Assembly: GCA_036488875.1 (NCBI GenBank)
Contig: DASXGW010000004.1
Span: 558,001-622,000 of the forward strand
Direction: 5' to 3'
Origin: Candidatus Baltobacteraceae bacterium
GTDB taxonomy: Bacteria > Vulcanimicrobiota > Vulcanimicrobiia > Vulcanimicrobiales > Vulcanimicrobiaceae
DNA: 64,000 nucleotides
Shown: positions 15,678 through 18,886 of the stretch, in pieces
Numbering within the stretch: the first letter of the stretch is position 1
Layout: each line of letters starts with the position of its first letter
Notes under the pieces: generated by a model
What the model was told of the DNA's origin: nothing
Databases searched by the model: none
Seen by the model: only the letters and a program-made list of their open reading frames with translations
Program-made: the position numbers and the translations under genes

Positions 15678-15706
15678 TTTACAGGCGACCCTAGTAGCCG
15701 TATCAT
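15678..15706 (+). promoter_or_regulatory. Promoter of the speH leader transcript
   Basis: TTTACA (15678-15683), exact 17-base spacer, TATCAT (15701-15706). Transcription should begin near 15713, just at the first stem of the structured leader. Confidence 0.6.
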
Positions 15707-15712
15707 TGTTGG

Positions 15713-15928
15713 CCGGTCCCTGTGAAGAGCAGGGCCAGACGGGCTGCGGGTGGCGCAGCTCACGGTTTAAGGGAGGCACGCCCTTACGTGCCATCGCGGC
15801 GAGTCGCCCGTGCACCGCAAAAGCGCCGGCAAGAGCTCGTCGATAGGTCGGGGACGTGACTGCACCGCAGGCGCCAGCCGACGAAGTCCGGAGGTGGGAT
15901 TCCCCCAGGGTCAAGGAGACCTACGAAA
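15713..15928 (+). ncRNA. Structured 5' leader of speH, class unknown
   Basis: About 216 untranslated bases precede the speH TTG. Visible helices are a stem GGTCCCTG/CAGGGCC (15715-15736), an 8-bp stem GGGCTGCG/CGCAGCTC just after it, and GGCACG/CGTGCC (15775-15792). The loop of that last hairpin, CCCTTA, is also complementary to TAAGGG (15768-15773), giving mutually exclusive foldings. A long-range TCGTCG/CGACGA pairing is possible, and a terminal GGTC/GACC hairpin holds the AAGGA Shine-Dalgarno in its loop. I could not match it to a known riboswitch. No good open reading frame lies here, so this also accounts for the gap between sufB and speH. Confidence 0.55.
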
Positions 15929-16339
15929 TTGAAGGCACTCGGACGGCACATTGTGTGCGAATTCTCGGGCTGTGACCCGATGCTGCTTTCGGATGTCGAC
16001 GGCATCCACACCATGATGATCGCGGCCGCCAGGGCCGCCCGCGCTACCGTTATGGAAAGCGCTTTTCACCGTTTTGAGCCCCAGGGCGTTTCCGGCACCG
16101 TCATCCTGGCCGAATCGCACCTTTCCATCCATACCTGGCCTGAGAAGGGCTACGCCGCCATGGACTTCTACACGTGCGGCGACCATACCGACCCGTGGCT
16201 CGCGTGCGACCTCGCGGCCGATTCGCTGCAAGCCAAGAGCGTCCTCACCACCGAGTTCAAGCGCGGAATCGAAAAGAGCGACGGCGAGTTCTCGCACGTC
16301 GTTAGCGCGGATCGCGATCTGCGCGTTCTCACCGCTTAA
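15929..16339 (+). CDS. speH: S-adenosylmethionine decarboxylase proenzyme
   Basis: SpeH makes decarboxylated AdoMet, the aminopropyl donor for spermidine. The 136-residue proenzyme has the self-cleavage site Glu62-Ser63 (in LAESHLS), which generates the pyruvoyl group. The catalytic His68 (SIHTWPE) and Cys83 (YTCGDH) are present. It starts with TTG 15929, ten bases after an AAGGAG that sits in a small hairpin. Its partner speE lies 1.7 kb downstream behind two lipoprotein genes. The long leader suggests tight post-transcriptional control. Confidence 0.95.
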   Translation: MKALGRHIVCEFSGCDPMLLSDVDGIHTMMIAAARAARATVMESAFHRFEPQGVSGTVILAESHLSIHTWPEKGYAAMDFYTCGDHTDPWLACDLAADSLQAKSVLTTEFKRGIEKSDGEFSHVVSADRDLRVLTA

Positions 16340-16475: not shown

Positions 16476-17144
16476 ATGCGCTTTTCTATGATTCGCACCG
16501 GTGTTGTCGCATCGGCTGCGGCAGTTGCACTTGCGGCATGCGGCGGATCGCACGGCGTCGTTCCATCGACAGCGTTCATGCCGTCGATGCTAAGTAAGTC
16601 GACTGCGCCGACGACCTGTCCCGCTAATCCGCCCCAGCCGGCGTGGATCTTCAAGGGATCGTGTGTGATCTCGAAGCTGCCGACGAAGGGCAGAAAGTTC
16701 ACACTCGCCGCCTACAAAGGCTTCGCCGTAACGGTGACGATACCGAAGAATACTGCTACGGGCAATCCCGCCTTCGTTCTCGTCGACGCGGTCGGCGGAA
16801 AGACCAAAGACATCGCGCCTTACAAAGGCAAGGCGTTTCCGCCAATCTCGACGAGCCGCGGCAAATCGGTGATCAACATCGAAGCCGTCAACGCATTTCC
16901 CGGTCTGAAGTTTACCGGCGGAAGCTTGATCGTGTCCGTAACCGCGCAGAAACTTCCGGGAAATACTTGCACCGTTGCGGTCATCCAGCAAAAGGGCACC
17001 AAGTTCTCTTGGTTCTCGATTCCGATTCTGCCTTCGGTAAAGGGTAACGTCATTACCGAGAAGATCGCCGGAGGCGCCGTCGGCACGTTGTTCCCGAGCG
17101 GACTACCCGCCGGGCCGCTGTTCTTCAACGCCGCCTGCAAGTAA
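16476..17144 (+). CDS. Putative lipoprotein, first of a tandem pair
   Basis: A 222-residue exported protein with a lipoprotein signal (lipobox ALAAC, about residue 21) followed by a Ser/Pro-rich linker. The folded part has repeated beta-strand-like segments with YKG and VDAVGGKTKDI motifs and ends GLPAGPLFFNAACK. I do not recognise the family. It is clearly homologous over its whole length to the next gene. Each copy has its own intrinsic terminator. Two conserved Cys (near PTTC and NAAC) may form a disulfide. Confidence 0.75.
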   Translation: MRFSMIRTGVVASAAAVALAACGGSHGVVPSTAFMPSMLSKSTAPTTCPANPPQPAWIFKGSCVISKLPTKGRKFTLAAYKGFAVTVTIPKNTATGNPAFVLVDAVGGKTKDIAPYKGKAFPPISTSRGKSVINIEAVNAFPGLKFTGGSLIVSVTAQKLPGNTCTVAVIQQKGTKFSWFSIPILPSVKGNVITEKIAGGAVGTLFPSGLPAGPLFFNAACK

Positions 17145-17241: not shown

Positions 17242-17910
17242 ATGAGTCTTTCTACAGTTCGCAACGTCGCCGCAGCCGTCGGTGCGGCAATCCTCTTCGC
17301 TGCGTGCGGCGGACACGGCGTGATTCCGTCGCAGAGCGGCGCGCCCGGTTTTAACGCCGTGACTCCCGAGGCGACGGGGCCGTGCTACACGCACGCGGTT
17401 CAACCCGCGTGGATTTTCGAAGGCTCGTGCAACGTCAAAAAGCTGCCGCCAAAGGGCCTATCCCTCACGCTGGCGCCATATAAAGGCATCACCGTAACCG
17501 TCGCGATGCCCAAGAACAACTCCAAGGGAAATCCGAGCCTCGCGCTCGTCGACGCCGTTGGTGGCAAGGCTAAAGACATCAAGCCCTTCAAAGGCAAGGC
17601 ATTCCCGGCGCTTCCCAAGACCGCCGGTAAATCGGTGATCTACATCGAGGCGGTCAACCCGTTCGCTGGTCTGAAGTTCACCGGCGGAAACCTGATCGTA
17701 ATGGTCAAAGCGAAGAAGCTCCCCGGCAAAACGTGCGGCGTCGCGATCCTGCGACAAAACGGCAAGAAGTTCTCGTGGTTCTCGATTCCAATCCGGCCCA
17801 CGGTAAGCGGTAACACCATCAACGAAAAAATTTCGGGAGGTGCCGTGGGCACGTTGTTCCCGAACGGACTCCCGGCCGGCCCCCTATACTTCAACGCCGC
17901 CTGCAAGTAG
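17242..17910 (+). CDS. Putative lipoprotein, second of a tandem pair
   Basis: A 222-residue paralog of the preceding gene, with lipobox FAAC, the same PAWIFEGSC/NVKKLPPKG region, the VDAVGGKAKDIKPFKGKAFP block and the same C-terminal GLPAGPLYFNAACK. Most differences are conservative, pointing to a tandem duplication followed by divergence. A GGAGG-like Shine-Dalgarno precedes the ATG. The role is unknown; the location outside the membrane is inferred from the signal. Confidence 0.75.
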   Translation: MSLSTVRNVAAAVGAAILFAACGGHGVIPSQSGAPGFNAVTPEATGPCYTHAVQPAWIFEGSCNVKKLPPKGLSLTLAPYKGITVTVAMPKNNSKGNPSLALVDAVGGKAKDIKPFKGKAFPALPKTAGKSVIYIEAVNPFAGLKFTGGNLIVMVKAKKLPGKTCGVAILRQNGKKFSWFSIPIRPTVSGNTINEKISGGAVGTLFPNGLPAGPLYFNAACK

Positions 17911-17930
17911 CGGCGCAGCGATAACATGCG

Positions 17931-17958
17931 AAAACCCCGTCTCACCGGCGGGGTTTTT
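17931..17958 (+). terminator. Intrinsic terminator of the second lipoprotein gene
   Basis: AAAACCCCG pairs with CGGGGTTTTT around a short loop, near identical to the terminator of the first copy, supporting duplication of the whole unit. Confidence 0.85.
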
Positions 17959-17998
17959 CATAGGTGGCCGACGTTTTTCGTCTAATCTGAGCGCTCCC

Positions 17999-18885
17999 AT
18001 GCCCAAGACCGAGCACTGGCAGTGGTACGTCGAAGAGTCGGCGCCCACGGAGCAGCATCATCACGCGATCGATCGCGTCTATTACGCGGGCCGTTCGGAG
18101 TTTCAGCAAGTTGCCGTCATCGGAACGCCGGTGTTCGGCAAGATGCTCGTTCTCGACGGCGACACGCAGAGTTCTCAGGGCGACGAAAAGATCTATCACG
18201 AGAGTCTCGTCCACCCGGCGCTCGCGGGTGCCGCCGATCGCGGCGACGTGCTGATTCTCGGCGGCGGCGAGGGTGCGACCTTGCGCGAAGTCCTGCGCTG
18301 CTCGGACGTCAAGCGCTGCACGATGGTCGACATCGACGGCCTCGTCGTCGAGCTCTCCAAGCAGCATCTGCCGGAGTGGTCCGACGGGGCGTTCGACGAT
18401 CCGCGCGCGAGGGTGATCGTGGGCGACGCGCTGGCCTTCATGCGCGACGACAAGGATCGCTATGGCACCGTCATCTCGGATCTCACCGAACCGCTGGAAG
18501 ACTCGCCGAGCAACGTCCTTTTCAACGAGGACGTCTTCAAGCTCATCAAGTCGCGGCTGGCCGACGGCGGCGTGTACGTGCTGCAAGCCAGCACGGCCTC
18601 GTTCCACAACTACTCGCTGCACTGTAAGATGGCGCGGACGTTGCGGCGTCACTACGAGCACGTGACGTCGTTCTTCACCTACGTTCCGGCGTTCGATACC
18701 GACTGGGCGTTCCTGGCCTGCAGCGACCGCGTCGACCTCGCCGCGCTCGATGCGCCGGCCGTCGACGCCTACGTGCGCGGGCTGCGTGGTCAGAACTTTT
18801 TCTACGACGCGATCACGCATCGGCGGCTCTTCTCGCTGCCGCTGTACTTACGCCGCGCGCTTGCGGCAGCGGGAGATACGTTCTG

Positions 18886-18886
<1 letters not shown>
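17999..18886 (+). CDS. speE: Polyamine aminopropyltransferase (spermidine synthase)
   Basis: Transfers the aminopropyl group of decarboxylated AdoMet to putrescine (or agmatine/cadaverine in some lineages) to make spermidine and methylthioadenosine. It has 295 residues. LVLDGDTQSSQGDEKIYHE, LGGGEGATLREVLR (nucleotide-binding glycine motif) and VDIDG are as in the family, and GDALAFM carries the catalytic-loop Asp. ATG 17999 is chosen as it starts the typical short beta hairpin (HWQWYVE). It works with SpeH upstream, the decarboxylase at 46.6 kb and MtnP at 54.6 kb. Confidence 0.95.

Follow-up and report, generated by a model that had tools for sequence, protein, structure and literature searches.

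The SAM-II and preQ1 riboswitches are H-type pseudoknots that lie in short leaders and control translation. Amongst genes for polyamine synthesis, one bacterial class of spermidine riboswitch was described in 2023; it is a variant derived from the SAM-I riboswitch and is associated with speD, speE, and speB, among others, and further polyamine riboswitches are expected (PMC10853860). Candidate leader elements have also been described at other polyamine-related genes as the odc1 and potE motifs, which belong to ornithine decarboxylase and potE genes and not to AdoMet decarboxylase, and of which odc1 was described with a uORF (PMC8632094). AdoMet decarboxylase is absent from the main text of two published genome-wide searches for new bacterial RNAs (PMC11109978, PMC8632094). 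In the open-access literature, no paper was found with both “Eremiobacterota” and “riboswitch”, although such an absence is no proof of novelty.

The window analyzed here, a stretch of 64,000 nucleotides, encodes an AdoMet decarboxylase (speH, PF02675, E = 3.8e-40) at 15929–16339 on the forward strand, as are the promoter and leader elements given below. Its start at the TTG codon at 15929 was confirmed, and so was the promoter of the preliminary description, TTTACA-17-TATCAT, at 15678–15706. Transcription of speH probably begins just after this promoter, and with a predicted start near 15713 the leader would be approximately 216 nt long, also as described before, within the upstream region 15707–15928 that ends with the Shine-Dalgarno (SD) sequence AAGGAGA (15913–15919). 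A promoter occurs at the matching place in 77 of 82 leaders from the same family (f1), and 30 of 37 speH loci outside f1 have TTTACA-N15-18-TANNNT 78–214 nt upstream. Retention of so distant a promoter in nearly all relatives argues, indirectly, against transcription starting close to 15929, which had been named beforehand as a refutation. The earlier statement that other strong promoters of the window give near-leaderless transcripts has a slim basis, since there are only two equally strong promoters elsewhere in the window and one of them is 9 bp from the next ORF. In most of the f1 relatives (e.g., L005, L006, and L016), TTTACA and TATNAT are separated by a strongly G-rich stretch that contains two runs of G (GGGGGGG...AGGGGG); the window copy lacks this feature, which could be a regulator site or a trait of promoters in those genomes.

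Comparison amongst relatives provided the evidence for structure in the leader, because folding energy was uninformative (z = -0.19 against dinucleotide shuffles) and was rejected as evidence. Compensatory changes, which had been named beforehand as the test, are clearly present. In a MAFFT alignment made blind to structure from 30 sequences, pairing holds in 97.7% of the cells, and double changes occur in 15 of 37 pairs, compared with 6 expected by shuffling (15 was reached in 0 of 500 shuffles) and a maximum of 7 with slid partners. In an alignment of 82 copies, double changes occur in 26 of the 37 pairs, although this alignment was fitted to the model and thus leans towards it, and many of the relatives are close, such that the counts are not independent events and the effective number of sequences is approximately 11. 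Unsupervised covariation recovered the main pairs and, at about 11 effective sequences, gave no convincing further contact. Covariation far above the controls argues for a cis-regulatory role of the leader, as does the first pseudoknot stem (S1), which is kept by compensatory changes. A chance origin of the RNA was excluded by the shuffles, the slid controls, and matches outside of the sample from which the model was built.

The fold begins with a 5' stem domain (P1, 15713–15766) that varies in sequence and length, has at least 7 bp in 74 of 77 leaders, and is missing from the sister family f2. It is followed by an H-type pseudoknot (15771–15792). Its stem S1 has three pairs (GGG 15771–15773 with CCC 15781–15783) and is paired in 76 of 77 distinct sequences, in four through compensatory change, while stem S2 (GGCACG 15775–15780 with CGTGCC 15787–15792) is paired in 99.6% of the cells with double changes in four of six pairs; the first loop of the pseudoknot is one or two bases. 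The preliminary description had noted a CCCTTA loop complementary to an adjacent TAAGGG. The two are indeed complementary and adjacent, but of the six bases only GGG:CCC, which is S1, is kept across relatives. Two arms come next. In the arm P3–P4 (15797–15842), double changes occur in six of seven pairs of P3 (15797–15803 with 15836–15842) and in five of seven pairs of P4 (15806–15813 with 15823–15830), and the loop contains a conserved unpaired AAGAG (15831–15835). The arm P5–P7 (15847–15882) comprises P5 (15847–15853 with 15874–15882), P6 (15855–15857 with 15871–15873), and the hairpin P7 (15860–15863 with 15867–15870). Whole helices have been replaced with the pairing kept, namely P5–P6 in L030, L112, and L120 and S2 in L108. 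In addition to AAGAG, the unpaired bases AUCG after the pseudoknot and GAUAGG between the arms are kept in most of f1. The small hairpin around the SD, noted previously, is present in the window copy, but a hairpin of at least 4 bp at this place occurs in only 45 of 82 relatives, and with such inconsistent conservation it was dropped as the candidate switch.

Amongst 4227 Rfam families, no credible match to the leader was found at E ≤ 10, lax thresholds included, and diverged relatives of the leader had no match at E ≤ 1. The SAM-I model (RF00162) likewise did not match the leader at E ≤ 10; within the phylum its hits are confined to f14–f16, on contigs other than those of speH, with none in f1. 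The speH leader RNA is not the known SAM-I-derived spermidine riboswitch. Both are leader RNAs at spermidine synthesis genes including speD, with polyamine feedback as the likely role, but the spermidine riboswitch has a SAM-I aptamer (PMC10853860), whereas the speH leader has a pseudoknot and two arms, and control of speH would act on translation. Riboswitch classes can diverge, and the known spermidine riboswitch, itself a SAM-I variant, also precedes speD, such that the leader could be a strongly diverged member of a described class missed by present models. We consider this very unlikely given the lack of Rfam matches even for the diverged relatives, an architecture that differs from SAM-I, and the absence of SAM-I from f1. 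With the odc1 and potE motifs the leader shares its status as a candidate element at a polyamine-related gene, and with SAM-II and preQ1 it shares the H-type pseudoknot and, as proposed here, control of translation. Unlike in those two classes, the pseudoknot is one of several domains without an Rfam match, and it ends approximately 120 nt before the SD and therefore cannot hide the SD directly.

By BLASTN the leader was found in 33 of 60 related genomes, all of f1. A covariance model (R1) built from 30 relatives matched 87 of 149 genomes of the phylum, 85 of them in f1 and two in f2, and the RNA is almost always present as one copy per genome. The two f2 matches (62 and 53 bits) are from sequences outside of the training set. 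In the window's own genome there is a single copy with 159 bits, and the runner-up scored 18.7 bits. A pattern scan of 84,980 species returned 41 contigs, 39 of which carry the leader RNA; most are labeled Eremiobacterota, Eremiobacteria, Vulcanimicrobiota, or “bacterium”, with two labeled Rhodospirillales and one UBP12. An Eremiobacterota/Vulcanimicrobiota genome is accordingly the most likely source of the window. Beyond the phylum, the comparison extended to sampled Bacteroidota and Pseudomonadota and to a small number of plasmid and phage records, and R1 matched none of 200 Pseudomonadota. The aligned leaders have long, near-invariant blocks from the pseudoknot through the SD, and the promoter is kept as well. 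Mean identity to the window copy is 86% for the leader core and 73% for the speH coding sequence, with the core higher in 75 of 76 comparisons. A core more conserved than the coding sequence, together with the retention of a distant promoter, favors a cis-regulatory role.

Each of the 82 copies examined is immediately followed by speH, and none lies at another gene; the downstream speH was found by tblastn for 81, and the remaining copy is truncated at the edge of a contig, where the region of the start codon can still be seen. The leader is absent from 14 f1 genomes; in 12 of these speH gave no hit either, one (G031) has only a speH fragment, and the other is G102. The retention of the leader across f1 and in two out-of-sample f2 genomes, its exclusive association with speH in the copies examined, and the frequent absence of speH where the leader is absent are consistent with cis-regulation of speH, as are the lack of a terminator-like site in the leader and the presence of a spermidine synthase ORF downstream (17840–18886). 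Since the leader has no terminator-like site, translation is the likely step of control. A compact, structured RNA with its own promoter could instead act chiefly in trans, as a small RNA that is transcribed from the speH promoter and released by processing of the leader. This is highly improbable, as the RNA never occurs away from speH, has no terminator before the gene, and is conserved onwards through the SD into the start codon.

Several other features of the speH loci were observed. Between speH and the spermidine synthase ORF are two adjacent, similar ORFs of 222 aa (16476–17144 and 17242–17910), which are tandem paralogues with lipoprotein-like N termini. In genome G108, an additional speH lies at the end of a contig, with its leader cut off. 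Genome G019 has two speH genes (L121 and L122), each preceded by the leader RNA, although the assembly is listed at 7% contamination and the two may derive from different organisms.

The most widely conserved part of the leader, missing from the preliminary description, is a terminal hairpin (15890–15903, GGAGGUGGGA), GGAG-GUGGGA-UUCC, with an SD mimic in the 5' arm and an anti-SD in the 3' arm (YUCC amongst relatives). Outside of f1, 37 speH leaders were compared (35 from other families and two from f2), and GGAGGU[GC] was found 34–83 nt before the speH start in 32 of them, compared with 0.7 expected from shuffled sequence. In the other families, the leaders have neither pseudoknot nor arms and keep the terminal hairpin. 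A hairpin of the form GGAG-(6-7 nt)-YUYC occurs in 107 of 112 leaders, compared with 21 expected (maximum 32) when the downstream arm is shuffled. In 15 whole genomes, the copy at speH accounts for 12 of 17 matches to GGAGGTGGGA-N0-2-YTCC; the remaining five are dispersed and could be due to chance, and a reversed-pattern control gave three. GGAGGTG is absent upstream of speH in 14 Bacteroidota, and amongst six plasmid or phage speD loci it is found only in Leptospira, where it is positioned as an ordinary SD. Viral contigs also gave matches in a pattern scan; none of the matching contigs has a speH relative. In 72 of 81 family leaders, the real SD is a possible pairing partner of the 3' arm, but this alternative pairing is weak evidence because any pyrimidine-rich stretch pairs with an SD. 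The phylum-wide hairpin and the capacity of its 3' arm to pair with the SD nevertheless fit a cis-regulatory role. A reading of UGGGA as a T-loop was dropped, as its fifth base varies outside of f1.

Different leader arrangements were also observed. In f16, the SD of speH is inside a strong hairpin, GCAAAUCACUCC-GGGAAU-GGAGAUUUGC, which in L174, L175, and L200 adjoins the GGAGGUG hairpin as a visible SD-hiding element. Bacteroidota-group genomes (L328, L329, L330, L332, and L326) have a different conserved speH leader, CCUACCCUUCGCUC...AAGGAGGGUAGCC before the ATG, in which CUACCCU is complementary to the SD region AGGGUAG. Another leader, GGUUAGGACCUCUUUGGACUAACUUUCCCCC...UUAAAGGGGGAC, lies upstream of speD on an Anoxybacillus plasmid (L177); it may form a hairpin, contains a stretch that resembles an anti-SD, AACUUUCCCCC, and is unrelated to the leader RNA of the window.

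The terminal hairpin is open to two further explanations. GGAGGUG is a 7-nt match to the 16S anti-SD, fixed amid varying surroundings, and the real SD of speH is often weaker, such that the leader could be unregulated and act as a ribosome standby site or mRNA stabilizer that sets a constant, high expression of speH. The match refers to the canonical anti-SD sequence, since the 16S tail of the window's genome was not found when sought as an exact 16-mer. This explanation is doubtful enough that we give it little weight. The motif is 34–83 nt upstream with no start codon nearby and is usually paired in its own hairpin, its preference for speH (12 of the 17 genome-wide matches) is unlike a general translation enhancer, and the covarying fold would be left unexplained. 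Alternatively, SpeH or another RNA-binding protein may recognize GGAG-GUGGGA-YUCC, in f1 together with the pseudoknot fold, and repress translation. A single hairpin with a near-fixed loop, found phylum-wide in very different 5' contexts and only on the mRNA of the enzyme itself, is typical of an autogenous site, and the link to speH alone, with no transporter or other pathway gene, is also expected of autoregulation. However, the pseudoknot and two covarying arms of f1 exceed the usual needs of a protein site, and AdoMet decarboxylase has, to our knowledge, no RNA-binding domain. Protein binding is thus an unlikely, though not negligible, explanation.

A structured, cis-acting leader of speH is well supported by sequence conservation, covariation, the exclusive link to speH, and the absence of a terminator-like site. 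This part of the preliminary interpretation as a riboswitch or other cis-RNA holds, whereas binding of a small molecule, and the choice of ligand, are suggested by the downstream gene. As expected of riboswitches in general, the leader has a conserved, covarying structure in the 5' UTR of a metabolic gene. On balance, we lean towards an undescribed cis-regulatory leader RNA of speH, most likely a riboswitch that acts on translation and responds to a ligand of the SAM/polyamine pathway. The leader would fold into the 5' stem domain, the pseudoknot, the arms P3–P4 and P5–P7, and the terminal hairpin, followed by the SD, and the folded part would sense a compound of the SAM/polyamine pathway, for which spermidine may be the first candidate, then SAM or decarboxylated SAM. 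Ligand binding would decide the partner of the UUCC arm. Paired with GGAG of the hairpin, UUCC would leave the SD free; paired with the real SD, it would block it. A ligand-dependent choice between the two YUCC pairings would be the simplest switch, and we infer this choice, its direction, and its ligand.

Against such a switch, the GUGGGA loop is nearly fixed, although an anti-anti-SD would not need a fixed loop. Moreover, since nothing but the terminal hairpin is retained in other families, their sensor cannot be the pseudoknot and arms, and some families (e.g., f10, L193) have little more than this hairpin. A more specific and tentative possibility, which we hold with less confidence than doubt, is that the RNA forms a riboswitch class with a fold of its own, whose ligand is decarboxylated SAM or else spermidine, sensed independently of SAM-I, and that a single family added it to a GGAGGUG switch hairpin of speH that is older and phylum-wide.

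The speH leader RNA matches no known family and is probably an uncharacterized switch of polyamine synthesis in a little-studied phylum, Eremiobacterota/Vulcanimicrobiota, for which metagenomes are the main source of knowledge. It is a well-supported candidate with a fold unrelated to that of the SAM-I-derived spermidine riboswitch, and in every copy examined it precedes the gene of the enzyme by which SAM is committed to polyamine synthesis. Experiments could start from a precisely delimited RNA, a few candidate ligands, and specified mutations. The modular pattern, in which an old hairpin is combined with 5' domains that differ between families, would also illustrate how a new sensor is acquired by a leader.
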